Part shown: piece after piece, positions 43,395 through 53,482 of the stretch
Position numbering within the stretch: the stretch's first letter is position 1
Layout: every line of letters begins with the position of its first letter
Assembly (NCBI GenBank): GCA_024742495.1
Contig: JANSYJ010000005.1
Location: 124,001-188,000 of the forward strand
Direction of reading: 5' to 3'
Length of the DNA: 64,000 nucleotides
DNA from: Bacteroidota bacterium
GTDB lineage: Bacteria > Bacteroidota > Bacteroidia > Flavobacteriales > Schleiferiaceae
Translations under genes and position numbers: made by a program
The notes under the pieces: model-generated
Seen by the model: only the letters and a program-made list of their open reading frames with translations
What the model was told of the DNA's origin: nothing
Database searches by the model: none

Positions 43395-43441
43395 ATGAGG
43401 TCCTGACTGCCCTAATAAGGGAGTCAGGATTTCTCATTTTT
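43395..43441. terminator. Long hairpin downstream of hemL; T-run lies on plus-strand side
   Basis: ATGAG-g-TCCTGACT-g-CCCT-AATA-AGGG-AGTCAGGA-ttt-CTCAT then TTTT; 17 paired positions. Confidence 0.6.
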
Positions 43442-44726
43442 AGAGCTTATCAATACTGCGTTTTGCCGCTTCTAAGGTTTTTGAAATATCGTCTTCTGAA
43501 AGGGCAGCATTTAAGAACCAACTCTCATAAGCGCTAGGCGGAAGGTAAACCCCTTCTCTAAGCATATTGTGGAAGAAATCCTTAAAGTGTTGATTGTCGC
43601 CCAGCTTAGCACTGTCAAAATCGCGCACTGCTTGATCAGTAAAGTGCAAGCTTATCATGGAGCCAATGCGATTGATTTGATAGGGCATCCCTTTGGTTTT
43701 TAGAAGATCATGCAGTCCATTTTCTATTTGCATGCATCGTGATGCCATTTGCTCGTAAACGGAGGGCTCATCTCTTAAATGCTTAAGAAGGGTATATCCC
43801 GCAGTCATGGCAATGGGATTTCCCGAAAGGGTGCCTGCCTGATAAACCGGTCCATTGGGCGCTACATATTCCATAATATCCGCTCTACCGCCATAGGCGC
43901 CAACGGGCAGGCCAGCACCGATAACCTTACCGTAGGTGATAAGATCTGCTTCAATCCCAAAGGTGCCTTGTACACCGCCAAAACCCAAGCGGAAGCCAGT
44001 CATCACTTCATCAAAGATTAAAATGATATTATGATCATCACATAGTTTGCGAAGGCCCTCTAAAAATCCTTTTTCGGGAAGAATACATCCCATATTTCCT
44101 GGCACCGGCTCTATTATTATGGCAGCGATGTCTTCTGGATGCTGAGCCACCAAGGCTTGTAGGCCTTCCAAATCATTGTATTCGGCAAGCAGCGTGTCTT
44201 TTGCGGTGCCCGGTGTAACTCCTGGACTACTCGGATGACCAAGCGTTACCGCGCCACTGCCCGCTTTAATTAAAAAGCTATCGCCATGTCCATGATAATT
44301 CCCTGCGAATTTCACAAACTTGTTTCTGCCGCTAAAGCCGCGCGCTAATCGAACCGCACTCATAGTGGCCTCGGTCCCGGAATTAACCATGCGAATTCGC
44401 TCAACGTTGGGAATTTCTTGAACGATTAATCGCGCCAATTCAATCTCCATTTCTGTTGGTGCGCCAAAGGAGGTCGATTTTTCCGCGGCTTTTTGCACTG
44501 CTTCAATAACCGGTTCCCAAGCGTGTCCCATGATCATCGGTCCCCAAGAAGCGATGTAGTCGATATAGGCATTGCCATCCGCATCATAGAGGTAGGCGCC
44601 TTTGGCGCGCTCCATAAATATAGGATCTCCACCAACCGATTTAAAAGCACGAACGGGTGAGTTTACGCCTCCTGGAATGTACTTAGAGGCTTCGGCGAAA
44701 AGCTGTTTGCTATTGGCTGTGCTCAT
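43440..44726 (-). CDS. hemL: Glutamate-1-semialdehyde 2,1-aminomutase
   Basis: [63 protein letters not shown]. Confidence 0.97.
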
Positions 44727-44796
44727 GAAAATATATTAAAGGTCTTATGGTCAGAATTGAAACTAATTTCAATCCTGAGCTTTCGACAATTTGGAT

Positions 44797-45786
44797 TTAG
44801 TTTTCCTTAAGGTAGTTGATGATATCCTTAACAAAATAGGTAGCGATTAAATCGGCGCCAGCCCTTTTAATGGCAGTTAAGGATTCTACCATCGCTTCGG
44901 TTTCATTTAACCAGCCATTGGCTGCTGCGGCCTTTATCATCGCATACTCGCCACTTACGTGATAAGCGCTAACAGGTACGGTGCTGATATCCTTGCTTTG
45001 GCGGATGATATCCAGATAAGCCATAGCGGGTTTCACCATCACCATATCGGCTCCTTCCTGCAAGTCTAATAAAACCTCCCTTTGTGCTTCCATGGCGTTT
45101 GCGGGATTCATCTGATAAGTTTTTTTATCCTTTGGGACATTTATCATATCCACTGGTGCAGAATCTAATGCATCCCGAAAAGGACCGTAAAAGCAAGAGG
45201 CATATTTAGCGCTGTAGCTCATAATGCCTACGTCCTCAAAACCGGCGGTGTCGAGGGCAATTCGCATGGCCTCAATACGTCCATCCATCATGTCGCTGGG
45301 AGCTACAAAATCGGCTCCGGCTTGGGCATGACTGATTGCCATTTCGGCTAATGCCCCTACCGACTCATCATTAATTATTTTACCATCTTCAACTATTCCA
45401 TCGTGACCCATACTGGAAAAAGGATCTAGGGCCACATCGGTCATTAAAAGGAGGTTTGGCACCGTTTCTTTAATCATGCGAATAGCGCGCTGCATCAATC
45501 CATCGGGATTTAGCGCCTCGGTACCATCATTATCTTTAAGCTCATCTGCCACTTTTACAAATAGAAGTAGGGCAGTACAGCCAATACTTTGTAGTTCTAA
45601 GACCTCCTCTTTTAAAAGGTCAAGACTATATCTATAATAACCAGGCATAGAACTTATCTCACTTTTCACCTTTTTACCTTCAACAGCAAATAAGGGGGCA
45701 ATGAAATCACTGGCATGCAATCGGGTTTCTTGGGCAATTCCCCGAATAGCGGCATTTTGTCTTAAACGTCTGGGTCTTTGTAACAT
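44797..45786 (-). CDS. hemB: Porphobilinogen synthase
   Basis: RPRRLRQNAAIRGIAQETRL; VAPSDMMDGRI; GADMVMVKPAMAYLDIIR. Confidence 0.97.
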   Translation of the reverse strand: MLQRPRRLRQNAAIRGIAQETRLHASDFIAPLFAVEGKKVKSEISSMPGYYRYSLDLLKEEVLELQSIGCTALLLFVKVADELKDNDGTEALNPDGLMQRAIRMIKETVPNLLLMTDVALDPFSSMGHDGIVEDGKIINDESVGALAEMAISHAQAGADFVAPSDMMDGRIEAMRIALDTAGFEDVGIMSYSAKYASCFYGPFRDALDSAPVDMINVPKDKKTYQMNPANAMEAQREVLLDLQEGADMVMVKPAMAYLDIIRQSKDISTVPVSAYHVSGEYAMIKAAAANGWLNETEAMVESLTAIKRAGADLIATYFVKDIINYLKEN

Positions 45787-45790
45787 AAAT

Positions 45791-46705
45791 TTAGTTTAAC
45801 CAGTTTTTAGGCTCTTTTAGCACGGCAATCAGCTCAGCTTCAGGACTACCTTCTTCGACCTGAACATTATAGTCCCAACGCACTCTTGGTGGTAGGCTCA
45901 TTAAGATACTTTCCGTTCTGCCATTGGTGCGTAGGCCAAAGAGGGTTCCTCTATCGTGAACGAGATTAAATTCTACATAACGACCTCGGCGCAACTCCTG
46001 CCAATAACGCTGATCATCAGTGTAGGACTGATCTTTACGCTTTGCCACAATGGGTAAATAGGAGGGGAGAAAGCTTTTCCCCATGTCGGTAGTAAAGTTG
46101 TACCAGTCTTCTAAGCTATGGTTTTCATTCGCTTTGCAATAATCGAAAAAGGTACCTCCAATCCCGCGACCTTCATCGCGATGATGGTTTCGAAAATAAT
46201 CGTCACAAGCTTTTTTAAAGCGGGGGTATAAAGCACTGTCATGCTTATCCGCCGCCTTTTTTTGCTCCGCATGAAAATGAATGGCATCCTCTTCAAAGAG
46301 GTAATAAGGGGTTAAATCACTACCACCACCAAACCAAGCGTCGATAATAGTATCATTCTTATCATACATCTCAAAAAAGCGGAAATTGGCGTGGGTAGTA
46401 GGGGCCATGGGATTTTCGGGATGGATCACCAAAGAGATGCCACAAGCGAAAAACTTCGAGCCTTCCGTTTTCATGTTTTTCTTCAGGGCTTCGGGCATTT
46501 CGCCATGCACTATTGAAGTACTTACGCCGGCTTTTTCAAAAACTTTCCCATTACTCAACACGCGCGAACGGCCACCACCACCGCCCGGTCTATCCCACAA
46601 ATCTTCTTGAAATGTTGCTAGGCCATCTAGCTCTTCAATTGCCTGACAAATTTCATCTTGCAGGCCGCGGATAAAATCAACAAAGCGATCTTTTAAATCA
46701 GCCAT
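45791..46705 (-). CDS. hemF: Oxygen-dependent coproporphyrinogen III oxidase
   Basis: [69 protein letters not shown]. Confidence 0.97.
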
Positions 46706-47726
46706 AGTTTTTCACGGTATTCACAAAGGCTTTGGCATGATCAACCGGAATGTTTGGCAAAATACCATGACCTAAATTGGCGATGTATTTGTAGCTGCCA
46801 AAGTCATCAATCATTTGCTTAGTTAACCTTTCAATTTCGGGAATCGGGGAGAGCAAGCGAGCGGGGTCGAAGTTTCCTTGTAAGGTGATGTTAAATCGTG
46901 TAAACTCGCGTGCCATTTGTGGGCTAATAGTCCAATCTACTCCCAAGGCATTCACAGGCATAGCACTCATCTCCTCCAGGGCAAACCAACAACCTTTGGC
47001 AAAAGCTATTACTGGCGTATGTTCCTGTAAGGCTTCTGCAATTTGTTGGATGTAAGGCAGGGAAAAGCTGCGGTAGTCTTGGGGAGATAATAATCCGCCC
47101 CAGCTATCAAATATTTGCACCGCATGTACCCCTCGCTCTTGCTTATGACGCAAATAAGCAATGGTTACATCGGTTATTTTTTGCAATAATTTATGGGCCG
47201 CTTCGGGGTGAGAAAAACAAAATTCCTTGGCCTTGTCGAATGTCTTACTACCCTGACCTTCTACCATATAGCAGAGAATGGTCCAAGGCGAGCCTGCGAA
47301 ACCAATTAAAGGAACTTCATTTTCAAGCGCTTCAAGGGTTAAGTCGATGGCCGAATAAACATAATGTAAGCGGTCTTTAACATCAATATCAGGCAGGGCA
47401 TCTACTTGTTCTGGGCTGCGTATTGGTTTTGGAAGGTAAGGGCCCTTGCCAGGAATCATCTGCACCTCTACATCCAATGCCTGGGGAATTACTAGGATAT
47501 CACTAAATAAAATTGCGGCATCTGGTCCAACCTGATGGATTGGCATTACCGTGATCTCCGTGGCGAGTTCGGGGTTTTCGGCACGCTCGAAAAAGCTGTA
47601 CTTCGCCTTTAACTTCATAAAGTCGGGAAGGTAGCGTCCGGCTTGACGCATCATCCAAACGGGTGGACGTTCCACTTTTTCTCCATTTAGAGCTTTGAGG
47701 AAGAGGTCGTTTTTAGGTTGAGTCAT
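46698..47726 (-). CDS. hemE: Uroporphyrinogen decarboxylase
   Basis: [47 protein letters not shown]. Confidence 0.97.
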
Positions 47727-48457
47727 GTATTCGGGTTTGGGCTTTCGCCAAAAAATTCGATTACTTTATTTACCACGCCCTGAAGGGTCGGGTCGTCTGC
47801 GCAAATCCTCGGGTTATCGCATCTCAAGCGAACGGCTTCGGCGGTAGTGGCCCCAATGCAAATTACGGGAATTGTAGAGGAAACTTTGTTTTTCTTAAAA
47901 AAGCTAAAGGCAGCAGTTGGACTAAGGAATATTAAACCTTTGATATCTTCCGTAGCCACGGTTTCATGCACTAATTCCGTTTCGTAAACTACTTCTAAGT
48001 GGACACGGATATTTTTGCTTTCCAGGTATTCGGGTAAATCATCCAAGGCTTTGTTACCACAGAAAAAGTCAATGGATTTAACGTCTGGATTACGGGCAAT
48101 TATTTGCGCCAGCTTAAGAGCGTTTTCGGCACGGACATTTGATTTTACCCCAAGCTCTGCTAGCATTTCGGTTGCTTTTATGCCTACTGTGAAAGTTTTC
48201 TTTTCCGGTATGCTGATCTTGGGATCCGAATCAAGTAGGGCTTTTAAGCTACGCACCGCATTCTTACTGGTGAAAACGCGAGCGGAACTTTCCGAGTGCA
48301 TCAGGCAGTCGCGAAATTTAGCGGCATCAAAAGTATTTTCAACTTTAATAAAGTCTTTGGAGCGTAATTCTAGACCAGCATTTTTTATCTGTTCTTCCAT
48401 TTCGGAAGGGAGAACTCGCGTTGAAAATAGTAAGGGAGGATTTGTGTCGCTAGTCAT
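47723..48457 (-). CDS. hemD: Uroporphyrinogen-III synthase
   Basis: [41 protein letters not shown]; position between hemE and hemC. Confidence 0.88.
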
Positions 48458-49358
48458 TTTTAATCTTATCCATGATCGCCTTGGCTCCTTGATTTAGTGC
48501 TTCATTAGCTAGGTTTATTCCTAGTTCTGAAGCAGCTTCCAAAGGTACCGTATTTTCAAGGATCACCTTGTTTGAACCATCTAAGCTAAAAACCCCTGCG
48601 CGCAAGGAAAGTTTAGAATCAACTTGCACGGCATGAGCGCCCACCGGTGCGGAGCAGCCCCCTTCCACTTGCTTTAAAAAATTGCGTTCAACTTGGGCCT
48701 GCAATGCAGTCGCTTCATGATTTATGGCTGCGAGGATAGCTTTGCTCTTAGCATCGTCCACTCGGCAAGTAATGCCAATTATGCCTTGCGCCGGAGCGGG
48801 TATCATCCAATCTAATTCAAGGTAATGCTGCGGTAAGAGGCCTAGGCGCTCCAGGCCTGCTTTGGCGAAAATTGCTCCATCCCAATTGCCATCCCTAAGT
48901 TTAGCTAAACGGGTTTGCACATTACCCCTTAAGTTGGGATTGCTATGATTTGGATAACGACTTTTCCATTGCGCAATACGGCGAATGCTACCCGTGGCAA
49001 TTTGCGCTTCTTCTTTTTCTAAAAAGCTAGTATCCCCTTTATGGACAAGAATATCATTTACGGCCCCTCGTTCTAAAACAGCAGCCATTACAATGCCATT
49101 TGGAGCCTGTGTAGGATAGTCTTTTAGCGAGTGTACGGCAATGTCAACCTCTTCCTCAAGGAGGGCATCGTCTAGGATTTTAGTGAAAACTCCAGTGCTG
49201 CCAAATTGATGCAATGGTGTTTTTAGATCGATATCCCCAGATGATTTTAAGGGAACTAATTCTGTTTCCAGGCCTTGATCATTTAAGAGGGAGGCTACTC
49301 GTTTTGCCTGCCAAAGTGCCAAGGCCGAATCTCTCGTGCCTATCCTTAATTTAGTCAT
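48450..49358 (-). CDS. hemC: Hydroxymethylbilane synthase
   Basis: LRIGTRDSALALWQAKRVA; IAVHSLKDYPT; AKAGLERLGL; PAPAQGIIGI. Confidence 0.97.
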   Translation of the reverse strand: MTKLRIGTRDSALALWQAKRVASLLNDQGLETELVPLKSSGDIDLKTPLHQFGSTGVFTKILDDALLEEEVDIAVHSLKDYPTQAPNGIVMAAVLERGAVNDILVHKGDTSFLEKEEAQIATGSIRRIAQWKSRYPNHSNPNLRGNVQTRLAKLRDGNWDGAIFAKAGLERLGLLPQHYLELDWMIPAPAQGIIGITCRVDDAKSKAILAAINHEATALQAQVERNFLKQVEGGCSAPVGAHAVQVDSKLSLRAGVFSLDGSNKVILENTVPLEAASELGINLANEALNQGAKAIMDKIKND

Positions 49359-49361
49359 CTT

Positions 49362-50600
49362 TTAGAGCTCAAAGATGTGATGTATAGTACGAAGGTCGCC
49401 ATTGAGATCGGCGCCATTTTTTAGTTTTCGGGCAAATTGTCCGGTAATACGATTTAGCATTTGGCTCGCAAAATACTCCGCTTGATCCACGGGCATTTCA
49501 GGGAATTTCTTTTGGAGGGTTTTAAGCTCCTTTTCCTTCCAGCTATCCATTTTGCTGCGCATTGCTTGTAAGGTAGGTGCCACGCGGCGGGTTTCCAGCC
49601 AATCGTAAAATTCGCCAATCTTTTGGTCGATAATTGTTTCGGCTAAAGGTATTTGGGATTGCCGGTTGCGAATGCTTTCTTCCGCTACTTCGGAGAGGTG
49701 ATCTACATCAATAACCGTATAGTGAGGATCGGCATAGAGCTCAGTTGCCACATTGCGAGGCATGCTGAGGTCCAGTAAAAGTCGGCTTTTGGTTTCTTTA
49801 AAGTCTTCGAGCTTAACAGTTGCTTCGGCAGCACCAGTGGCCACTATAATTATATCCGCCTTATTTAAACCTTCTTTAAGGTGATCGAGATCCAAATGCT
49901 TCACGCCAAAGCGATCGGCTAAGCGCATGGCCTTTTCCTCGGTGCGATTGATTAAAGTGATATCACTTATCCCGGTTTGATTTACGAGGTTTTCGCAGGT
50001 GGTGCGCCCCATTTTACCAATACCGTAGAGTAATACGCTGGGATTAGATTTGGTTTTCAGGTACTGCTTAACCTGCAGCACCGCTGCAAAAGCCACCGAG
50101 GCAGCGCCGGTACTTAATTCCGTTTCGTTTTTAACACGCTTACTACATTGAACTGAAATGTTTATCAAGCGATCTAAAAAGGAATTGTGCATTGCCAGTT
50201 CCTTAGATCTTTGATAAGCCTTCTTTACCTGACCGATGATTTCAAAATCACCAAGAATCTTAGATTCTAATCCAGAGCTCACCCGAAACAAGTGTTCTAT
50301 GGCAGCGCGATTTTGTAAAACGTTTTGATAGGGCTCAAAAGCCTCCTTGCTGTTCCCAGTAAATTCGCAGAAAAGCTGAATTAAATTTCGCGGGCAATTT
50401 GCAAAGGCATAGAGTTCGGTTCGATTACATGTGGAGAGAACCAATATTCCATCGCCTTCTTCATTGCGGTATTTTTGCACCAATTGATTGGCTTGCTCAT
50501 CACTAAGAGAGAAGCGCTCCCTAACGGAGACATCTGCTTTTTGGTGATCTATTCCTACCAAAAAGAAATTGGCAAAACGGCTAACTTCGAATTCCTTCAT
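49362..50600 (-). CDS. hemA: Glutamyl-tRNA reductase
   Basis: GIDHQKADVSVRERFSLSDEQA; LSTCNRTELYAF; LLYGIGKMGRTTCENL; start set to MKEFEVSRF. Confidence 0.95.
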   Translation of the reverse strand: MKEFEVSRFANFFLVGIDHQKADVSVRERFSLSDEQANQLVQKYRNEEGDGILVLSTCNRTELYAFANCPRNLIQLFCEFTGNSKEAFEPYQNVLQNRAAIEHLFRVSSGLESKILGDFEIIGQVKKAYQRSKELAMHNSFLDRLINISVQCSKRVKNETELSTGAASVAFAAVLQVKQYLKTKSNPSVLLYGIGKMGRTTCENLVNQTGISDITLINRTEEKAMRLADRFGVKHLDLDHLKEGLNKADIIIVATGAAEATVKLEDFKETKSRLLLDLSMPRNVATELYADPHYTVIDVDHLSEVAEESIRNRQSQIPLAETIIDQKIGEFYDWLETRRVAPTLQAMRSKMDSWKEKELKTLQKKFPEMPVDQAEYFASQMLNRITGQFARKLKNGADLNGDLRTIHHIFEL

Positions 50601-50610
50601 ATTGCGATCG

Positions 50611-50618
50611 CAAAAGTA
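50611..50618 (-). promoter_or_regulatory. -7 element (TACTTTTG on minus) for hemA operon
   Basis: CAAAAGTA on plus strand 11 nt upstream of hemA ATG; abuts palindrome GCGATCGC (50604-50611). Confidence 0.5.
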
Positions 50619-50787
50619 TCCCATTCAGCGCCGGTAATTTTACCTTGATTGGTATGAAAAATAACCCAAAAGGTAGTAAGACGCTTATTTAGAACCATTC
50701 TTTGTAAATTGCTGTATTCTTGCATTACCATTGCGCTTGCAAGGATAAAATAAACGAGGAATATGGTACTATGATATTTATCATGTC

Positions 50788-50795
50788 TAATTTTG
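50788..50795 (+). promoter_or_regulatory. -7 element TAATTTTG for AraC regulator
   Basis: TAATTTTG ends only 4 nt before ATG at 50800. Confidence 0.5.
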
Positions 50796-50799
50796 CCCC

Positions 50800-51705
50800 A
50801 TGGAATTAAGTATAGAGATTTTGCAATCTGAAATAAATACCCCAAAAAGTAGGGTTAAGCAATTGGCTTTAAATGAAGATGAGGCCATGGTGAAAGTGGA
50901 GCATCCTGAGGGTGAGGACTTAGGCCTTAAGATCGATGTGGATCAAAGTCTTATTCAGTTTTACTTTGCTTTTGAGGGTGCCGCCACATTTTCATTTAAT
51001 CAAGGCGCTTATCAGCTGCAGCTGAAAACCGGGACTTGTCTTTTGTTTTACAATCCATTGCAGTCGCTTCCAATGGATATGATGGTGAAGCCCGGTAGTA
51101 AGCTATTGCATCTTTATTTATCGGTAGAGAGTTTACATCGGATGTTTGTAGACGCCAGCGAAGAGTTGGCTTTTATAAACCCCGAAAATGTGGATAAGAA
51201 GTTTTATTCGGAAACCGCTTTAAATCCAGTCACTACTTTGGCTTTAAGTCAAATCTTTCAACTGCCCGTTAATGGGGCCTCCCAGAGTATTTACGAAAAA
51301 GCAAAAGTTTACGAGATCCTCGCTTGGTACTTTAATCGCAGTGAGGAAACGGATATTGAATCTTGTCCCTTCCTGGAGAATGAAGATAATGTTCAGAAAA
51401 TAAGGTTGGCAAAAAAGATTTTGATTGAGAAAATGACCGATCCGCCAACGATTCCGCAACTAGCGAAGGAAATTGGCCTAAATGAATACCGATTAAAAGA
51501 AGGTTTCAAGAACATTTACGGGACTACGGTATTTAAGTACCTGAGCGATTACCGCATGGATGTGGCTAGGCATATTTTAGAAGATGGCAAAGTGAAAGTA
51601 AATGAAGCGGCCTATCAAATAGGATATACCAACCCCAGTCATTTTATAGCGGCCTTCCGCAAGAAATTCGGGGTAACACCCAAAAAATATTTAATGAATC
51701 GATAA
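50800..51705 (+). CDS. AraC family transcriptional regulator
   Basis: C-term double HTH: TIPQLAKEIGLNEYRLKEGFKNIYGTTVFKYLSDYRMDVARHIL...VNEAAYQIGYTNPSHFIAAFRKKFGVTPKKYL. Confidence 0.93.
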   Translation: MELSIEILQSEINTPKSRVKQLALNEDEAMVKVEHPEGEDLGLKIDVDQSLIQFYFAFEGAATFSFNQGAYQLQLKTGTCLLFYNPLQSLPMDMMVKPGSKLLHLYLSVESLHRMFVDASEELAFINPENVDKKFYSETALNPVTTLALSQIFQLPVNGASQSIYEKAKVYEILAWYFNRSEETDIESCPFLENEDNVQKIRLAKKILIEKMTDPPTIPQLAKEIGLNEYRLKEGFKNIYGTTVFKYLSDYRMDVARHILEDGKVKVNEAAYQIGYTNPSHFIAAFRKKFGVTPKKYLMNR

Positions 51706-51711
51706 GCCTCA

Positions 51712-52734
51712 ATGAAGGAAGCAACATTAATAGTCAATTTAGGATCACCAGACTCCTACGCCGTAAAAGACGTGCGCAAATACCTAGGTGAGTTTTTAAT
51801 GGATGAAAGGGTGGTGGATTTTTCAAAATGGTTCCGCACTTTTTTGGTGAAGGGAATTATTTTAAACACTCGTCCTCCAAAGTCGGCCGCTGCCTATAAA
51901 AGCATTTGGTGGGAAGAGGGATCACCATTAATGGTCTTGTCTAAACGTCTTCAAGAAAGGGTACAAGCCCATAGTTCGGTACCAGTAGCCTTAGGCATGC
52001 GCTATGGAAATCCTTCTATAAAACAAGCTATTAGCGACCTTATAGCAGCACATCCCGATTTAGAAAAACTCAGTTTAGTGCCCCTTTACCCGCATTATGC
52101 TATGAGTAGTTATGAGACGGTGGTAGTTAAAGCTAGAGAGGTGGTGGAAAGCTTTTTTCCGCAATTGGAGATGCGGGTTCAAAAAGCATTTTATGAGGAT
52201 CCTCGATATATTGAAATTTTAAGTAACTCAATAAAGGCGGGACTTCCGGAAGACTATGATCATTTACTTTTTAGCTATCACGGGGTTCCGGAGCGACAAA
52301 TTAAAGGATCGGATGTAAGTAAATCACATTGTTTACGTCTAGAGGATTGTTGTGCAAAGGATAGTCCTGTGCAATCATTTTGTTATCGGCATCAAACATT
52401 GGCAACCACTAAATTGGTGGCGCGTCAATTAAACTTAAAAGAAGGCACTTATTCAACCAGCTTTCAAAGTCGTTTGGGACCGATTAAATGGTTAGATCCT
52501 TTTACGGATAAAACCATTGCAGAATTAGCGCAGAATGGAATAAAGAAGTTGGCCATTGTTTGTCCGGCTTTTGTTTCGGATTGTTTGGAAACGATTGAGG
52601 AAATCGGAGAAGAAGGAAAAGAGATATTCCAGGAGCATGGCGGGGAGGAGTTTACACTTATACCTTGCCTAAACGATCAGGATGATTGGGCAGAATACCT
52701 TGCCAAACTAGCATCGGAGCTATTTGAAAATTAG
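51712..52734 (+). CDS. hemH: Ferrochelatase
   Basis: LIVNLGSPDSYAVKDVRKYLGEFLMD; LFSYHGVPERQI; FQSRLGPIKWLDPFTD; IVCPAFVSDCLETIEEI. Confidence 0.96.
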   Translation: MKEATLIVNLGSPDSYAVKDVRKYLGEFLMDERVVDFSKWFRTFLVKGIILNTRPPKSAAAYKSIWWEEGSPLMVLSKRLQERVQAHSSVPVALGMRYGNPSIKQAISDLIAAHPDLEKLSLVPLYPHYAMSSYETVVVKAREVVESFFPQLEMRVQKAFYEDPRYIEILSNSIKAGLPEDYDHLLFSYHGVPERQIKGSDVSKSHCLRLEDCCAKDSPVQSFCYRHQTLATTKLVARQLNLKEGTYSTSFQSRLGPIKWLDPFTDKTIAELAQNGIKKLAIVCPAFVSDCLETIEEIGEEGKEIFQEHGGEEFTLIPCLNDQDDWAEYLAKLASELFEN

Positions 52735-52768: not shown

Positions 52769-53482
52769 ATGAAAAAGCTTTATCCCCTTCTCTTAGCCTT
52801 TGTAGGCTTTGGTCTTAATGCGCAAGTTGCCAATCACATGGTAGAAGATTGTAACAACAATCAAAATTCAATTTATCAAGTATTAAGCACTGGAACCCCA
52901 CTTATTGTGGCTTCCAAAGGATTCGATTGCAGCATCTGCGTATCTCGGGCTCCCGGTTGGGGAAATTGGGCGAGCAACAATCCACAAGTAGCGGTTTGGG
53001 GCGCCATGACCAATACCTACAATTCAAATATCCCTCCTTGTAGCCAATTAGCTACTTGGGTATCAAACCATGGTTGGTCGGATATCTATAGCTTCATTGA
53101 TTCAAGCAAGCACTTTTTTGAGTTTGGAACACCACGCTATATTGTTTACGATCCAAGCGATAGCACCATTGCTTATGAAGGTGGCAATCAAAGTACGGCT
53201 CGCAGTACGGCACTCGGTTTGGTTAGCAATAATATCTCGCTTAAAGAGAATGCATTAGAGTCTTTATATTTCTATTATCAAGACGGAAATCTCAACTTTG
53301 AGAATGTTCCCGAGGGAAATACGGCGCTTGAACTTTACAATTTGGCCGGTAAGAAGGAGCGCTCACTAAATCTTGGTGACGGTCGTAAATCATTTATGAT
53401 GAGTGATTTACCCAGCGGAATTTACTTAATGCGACTACAGAATAGCAGCGCGGTAATTAGCCGGAAAATAGTTCTTCCTTAG
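52769..53482 (+). CDS. T9SS-sorted secreted protein with CxxC, possibly thioredoxin-like
   Basis: Signal peptide ...FGLNAQ; ASKGFDCSICVSRAP; GTPRYIVYDP; C-term sorting-like ALELYNLAGKKERSLNLGDGRKSFMMSDLPSGIYLMRLQNSSAVISRKIVLP. Confidence 0.7.
   Translation: MKKLYPLLLAFVGFGLNAQVANHMVEDCNNNQNSIYQVLSTGTPLIVASKGFDCSICVSRAPGWGNWASNNPQVAVWGAMTNTYNSNIPPCSQLATWVSNHGWSDIYSFIDSSKHFFEFGTPRYIVYDPSDSTIAYEGGNQSTARSTALGLVSNNISLKENALESLYFYYQDGNLNFENVPEGNTALELYNLAGKKERSLNLGDGRKSFMMSDLPSGIYLMRLQNSSAVISRKIVLP

Follow-up and report, generated by a model that had tools for sequence, protein, structure and literature searches.

An AraC-type regulator with an invariant Cys-Pro motif as a proposed heme-status regulator beside heme synthesis and uptake genes of Bacteroidota

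Cys-Pro (CP) motifs are the best-studied heme-regulatory motifs, and a CP dipeptide by itself is no guarantee of heme binding (PMC6356037). Such a motif occurs in Irr of Bradyrhizobium which, like the regulator proposed here, is a bacterial heme-synthesis regulator with a Cys-Pro, Cys29-Pro30 in its case, and which has a separate His site (PMC4700492, PMC11442138); these sources agree with the first-pass annotation of this DNA, in which CP was treated as an established heme-regulatory motif. The bacterial heme regulators covered by a 2024 review are of the Fur, MarR, TetR and LysR types or are two-component systems, and the review mentions neither an AraC member nor Bacteroidota (PMC11442138). 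The first-pass annotation had also remarked that a heme-sensing AraC regulator was not known to be described, and none was found, in Bacteroidota or elsewhere, in the open-access papers searched. The regulator clade presented below is apparently an undescribed Bacteroidota family.

The window, that is, the whole stretch of 64,000 nucleotides analysed, contains the regulator gene between hemA and hemH, a position now confirmed by the Pfam identities of the neighbours. The genes and codons of interest are the following.

43440..49358, minus strand: hemC-hemD-hemE-hemF-hemB-hemL, the remainder of the divergent cluster (Pfam)
49362..50600, minus strand: hemA (glutamyl-tRNA reductase), first gene of the divergent operon, with probable start M9 at 50600 (Pfam)
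50800..51705, plus strand: AraC/PchR-like regulator of 301 aa, the proposed heme-status regulator (ORF translation, Pfam, clade placement)
51136..51138, plus strand: codon of H113, candidate second heme ligand (invariant in 107/107 clade sequences, 4/39 outside)
51364..51369, plus strand: codons of C189-P190, the CPFL motif in the linker (alignment, clade conservation)
51712..52734, plus strand: hemH (ferrochelatase), 6 bp after araC (Pfam)

Translation of the regulator ORF agreed with the earlier reading of a 301-aa AraC protein, and its C189-P190 is encoded by TGT-CCC. Two features of the AraC/XylS family were found in the protein, namely a C-terminal double HTH and a cupin-like N-terminal domain; the HTH domain (PF12833, residues 221-298, E=3e-21) was the sole Pfam match. 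No NCBIfam AraC equivalog cut-off was reached, the best score being 47.6 bits against the 900 of Btr, and the genome search gave no close paralogue in the same genome. Downstream of hemH, positions 52769-53479 encode a protein with a type IX secretion C-terminal domain (PF18962), for which no relation to heme was seen.

The AlphaFold2 model of the regulator had a mean pLDDT of 82.6. In this model a beta-rich N-domain ends near residue 140 and is followed by helices at 143-177, a loop at 181-189 with pLDDT below 50 and a helix into the HTH that begins at residue 190; therefore, the dipeptide stands in the linker, where the first-pass annotation had placed it. Foldseek matches were the AraC-type regulators ToxT, Rns and CuxR together with cupins, with low full-length TM-scores of about 0.3. 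The Cys-Pro is invariant in the clade and located, as far as a loop modelled at low confidence allows, in a flexible segment, and an invariant Cys-Pro ending a loop of otherwise variable residues is the pattern to be expected of a functional motif, although it may also serve to cap the helix.

Conservation of the dipeptide was studied in an alignment joining relatives from a contig search with orthologues from whole-genome searches. The contig search with the window protein yielded 63 loci, chosen without regard to CP, and in all 61 relatives that were full-length or nearly so the CP was aligned and present. The motif read CPFL in essentially all aligned orthologues, and CPFL or CPYV in the deep branches, while residues 181-188, just N-terminal of it, were variable. 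For the outgroup, a profile of 50 orthologues was run over 295 genomes of the same class and flanking DNA was added. CP was present in 107 of 107 clade sequences versus none of the 39 PchR-like outgroup homologues, and in the maximum-likelihood tree all CP proteins lay on one side of a branch with support of 100/99. Pairwise identity within the clade goes down to 22%, and H113, C189 and P190 were the only positions identical in the 107 sequences. The invariance of C189 and P190 is in part a circular result, since CP served to name the set. H113 played no part in choosing the set and was found in four of the 39 outgroup proteins (10%); as read from the alignment and tree, this figure and the absence of non-CP members inside the clade are free of that circularity. 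The alignment of hemH-linked orthologues, by which the first-pass annotation had suggested that its reading be judged, gave an invariant CP in the hemA/hemH-linked set, and the dipeptide was also invariant in the orthologues adjoining HmuY/TonB heme-uptake genes. The original observation was right and its significance was understated.

A few outgroup proteins have CKFL instead of CPFL. This outgroup AraC subfamily (L125, L126, L128, L185, L186, L193 and L197) includes three members with N-domain Cys pairs (L125, L126 and L128) and one located near a TonB receptor (L185), and it may sense another metal-containing ligand.

Regarding gene context, hemA was divergent within 700 bp in 66 of the 107 clade loci and a TonB receptor occupied that place in 24; for the other 17 no divergent partner was recognised in the available range, and short flanks, start calls or contig ends account for some of these cases. 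HmuY-domain proteins neighbour the TonB receptor in the loci examined, and both domains were confirmed with Pfam in examples. L085 additionally encodes a metal-chelate ABC-type periplasmic binding protein, and L098 combines both contexts, with a TonB receptor and HmuY to one side of the gene and hemL-hemB-hemE-hemD-hemC-hemA to the other. HmuY/TonB operons also adjoin the gene in the deep branches f109 and f68 (Pfam). Loci of the hem and hmu contexts are interspersed across the tree, with CP kept throughout; the fewest context changes were 6 for hem and 3 for hmu, and the well-supported branches alone force 3 and 2, respectively. Eight clade genomes gave no match in the ferrochelatase search and retain the CP regulator; heme is therefore a likelier common signal than a precursor. 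Against the heme-sensing reading stand two small-genome relatives, L134 and L135, in which the gene persists, its surroundings showed no heme gene and the ferrochelatase search gave no match. Outside the clade, the non-CP AraC protein of L181, whose linker has two other cysteines (ECNCQKE), is divergent to a HmuY-like/TonB operon and, as a consequence, CP is not needed for a HmuY/TonB neighbourhood. One Flavobacteriaceae genome has, besides a normal locus, a second and diverged araC that lies next to hemH, with hemA a few kb away (L129, G258:C7).

Comparison of intergenic regions and an EM motif search, cross-tested against dinucleotide shuffles, revealed an operator-like element with the consensus AAAAATAnC[CG]CnnAAAAGTA and half-sites 21 bp apart. 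The DNA elements of the window are listed below.

50612..50619, minus strand: hemA -7 promoter-like box TACTTTTG (TAnnTTTG; intergenic comparison)
50636..50656, plus strand: candidate proximal half-site AATTTTACCTTGATTGGTATG, 21 bp from the distal one (half-site spacing)
50657..50677, plus strand: candidate operator op1, distal half-site AAAAATAACCCAAAAGGTAGT (motif search; the core's only perfect match in the genome)
50688..50704, no strand: degenerate copy TTTAGAATnATTCTAAA of a conserved palindrome (intergenic comparison, motif search)
50771..50784, no strand: palindrome ATGATATTTATCAT near the araC promoter, kept in relatives (intergenic comparison)
50788..50795, plus strand: araC -7 promoter-like box TAATTTTG (intergenic comparison)
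50833..50853, plus strand: candidate operator op2 in the araC 5' coding sequence, ATAAATACCCCAAAAAGTAGG (p=0.005 versus synonymous recodings)

The motif took three forms, namely AAAaTAACGCTaAAAGtACT ahead of hemA in Flavobacteriaceae, aAATAnCCCgAttaataG among the relatives of the window and TACCCaaanAaGTATAATTA at hmu loci, and these had a common core in the cross-test against shuffles. The motif learned upstream of hemA in the window's relatives was enriched in hmuR-araC intergenic regions (z=18), 70% of which scored above the 95% shuffle level. The distance between a half-site and the -7-like box of the target was exactly 18 nt in 36 of 43 Flavobacteriaceae loci, 7 of 23 other hem loci and 10 of 24 hmu loci, and at this distance the box reads CAAAnnTA or CAAAnnTT on the other strand whether the target is hemA or hmuR. 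The offset of the second half-site peaked at 21 bp, which was the top offset in both hemA groups and weak in the hmu set; this may correspond to the tandem half-sites, about 21 bp apart near the promoter, of AraC-family operators. In 36 of 82 loci, against some 4 expected, the copy inside araC outscored synonymous recodings at p<=0.05, although these loci are related and not independent; therefore the DNA, and not the peptide alone, appears to be constrained. Upstream of hemA, 12 genomes without the araC gave shuffle-level scores, two of them borderline, and one genome with it gave 21.2 bits. In addition, in family f77, whose araC is remote from the heme genes and whose loci took no part in motif building, pairs of half-sites exactly 21 bp apart precede a HmuY-TonB-HmuY operon in the three genomes examined; singly, these matches reach only near the shuffle maximum, and it is their pairing, spacing and place that stand out. 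The motif search gave no clear operator at the remote HmuY loci of G008 and G026. Altogether, the comparison of sequences makes the linkage of the DNA element to heme genes strong.

Within the 3.6-Mb genome of the window, the 18-base core of op1 had one perfect match, and the search for further regulon members with the operator core brought out only op1 and op2, the latter with 3 mismatches but in place. A reversed control pattern matched this genome more often than the operator-core pattern, and therefore single weaker matches mean nothing. A covariation of second-HTH residues with the CGC and CCC operator types was also considered, and it was dropped since two families break it.

The hemA and araC boxes we take to be of the -7 type, as assigned from Bacteroidota promoters in general. 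The hemA box falls inside the longest hemA ORF and, for this reason, that ORF likely starts too early and the gene would begin at M9 with a very short leader; the araC box ends 4 nt ahead of the ATG. The conserved palindrome TTTAGAATnATTCTAAATAA, noted in the window and in the intergenic regions of L085, L096 and L099, is placed near araC in hem loci and over the hmuR core promoter in hmu loci, and it is a possible Fur/PerR-type box. As an AraC operator its copy TTTAGAATnATTCTAAA is disfavoured by its 7-1-7 Fur-type look and by this same placement, and searching the window's own genome with it returned only matches with 2 mismatches. Palindrome ATGATATTTATCAT is possibly the site of another regulator; ATGAnnnnnTCAT elements similar to it occur in relatives and in hmu loci (motif hmu2).

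A clade with a constant Cys-Pro and His, usually beside genes of heme synthesis or import, probably serves to sense how much heme the cell has. On these comparative data we favour, with reasonable if limited confidence, a one-component regulator of heme acquisition in which heme would be sensed directly through C189, in the flexible linker between the sensing and DNA-binding domains, and whose heme-free form would activate synthesis or uptake. The AraC HTH would bind a tandem pair of half-sites, spaced by 21 bp and placed immediately ahead of the -7 box of the divergent target, as well as a second site at the start of the regulator's own gene. The target would be the hemA operon in the window and the HmuY/TonB uptake operon in other lineages. 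H113, the probable candidate, would perhaps provide the other heme ligand. At low heme the heme-free protein would activate heme synthesis or import, heme at C189 would switch the activator off, and the araC-hemH transcript would be autoregulated. We infer the binding of the regulator to the element, the sensing of heme by C189 and the sign of control; the location of the candidate operator just upstream of the -7 box is, by AraC-family practice, that of an activator, and the heme-off sign is preferred because one logic, to make or import heme when it is low, fits both types of target. The broader proposal of a Bacteroidota-wide AraC family of heme sensors with His/Cys-Pro ligation, in which control has switched between synthesis and import with the same sensor residues and operator layout, we rate at slightly better than even.

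The main rival to this heme-off model is that the regulator senses heme and its heme-bound form is the activator, in the manner of PchR, where ligand present and iron low mean on. Uptake genes are often induced by their substrate, and the core promoter of the hmu loci shares bases with a Fur-like palindrome, the operator-like element standing just upstream. The effector of PchR is the siderophore pyochelin, according to the title of Michel et al. (2005) as cited in PMC7857532. However, under such an activator heme would switch on hemA and thereby feed back positively on synthesis, and the family adjoins hemA in most loci, for which we regard this sign of control as rather unlikely. Unlikely as well is a heme-pathway regulator answering a non-heme cue, be it iron, a siderophore, redox through C189 or a porphyrin precursor, with CPFL as a linker-helix cap or thiol switch. 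That a known PchR-like protein senses a siderophore, that CPFL stands at a helix start in the AlphaFold2 model and that some outgroups keep CKFL, so that the Cys can be conserved without the Pro, would fit this explanation. Nevertheless, the pre-C189 loop is variable and of low confidence while C-P is invariant, the targets include synthesis and HmuY-type uptake, both of which supply heme, and the CP retained in the eight genomes without ferrochelatase speaks against a self-made precursor.

On the same grounds, the heme- or porphyrin-sensing reading of the first-pass annotation is supported for heme, through the two heme contexts, the retention without ferrochelatase and the shared operator-like element, whereas porphyrin or ALA as the ligand becomes less likely. 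The idea that CP is a chance or merely inherited dipeptide without function, in a regulator of unrelated genes, has nothing for it beyond the caution voiced when the motif was noticed. This caution is answered by a CP invariant in the clade and missing from related AraC proteins outside; conservation across the 107 members rules out chance, CP being retained at identities as low as 22% and through changing gene contexts, with the heme linkage repeated across loci. The conservation data already contradict a CP without function, and we consider it highly improbable. The heme-sensing interpretation is supported at the level of comparative genomics. If true, control of the heme supply of Flavobacteriales and Cytophagales by one regulator family would explain how synthesis is matched to import, and the proposal names residues, DNA sites and targets open to test in one laboratory strain.

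Among the known systems, the HfpR/HfpY-type operon is presumably related to the TonB operons beside the regulator in Cytophagales and in the deep branches. HfpR/HfpY of Flavobacterium psychrophilum is a TonB heme-uptake system whose regulation was studied via iron, and that study does not mention an AraC regulator (PMC9331221). HemKR of Leptospira controls heme and iron metabolism (PMC11426443), but it is a two-component system, and the window regulator is of the AraC type. Irr differs in being a member of the Fur family and not of AraC, and heme both weakens its binding to DNA and brings about its degradation. PchR of Pseudomonas aeruginosa resembles the proposed window regulator in being a one-component AraC-type protein that serves an iron-compound pathway and works together with the gene of a TonB receptor and a biosynthetic operon, and we take the linker-HTH sequence of the window regulator to resemble that of PchR. 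However, PchR answers ferripyochelin, whereas the clade adjoins genes of heme synthesis or of HmuY/TonB uptake and not those of siderophore synthesis, and, in a comparison with PchR made by description only, the invariant Cys-Pro and His are a feature of the clade.
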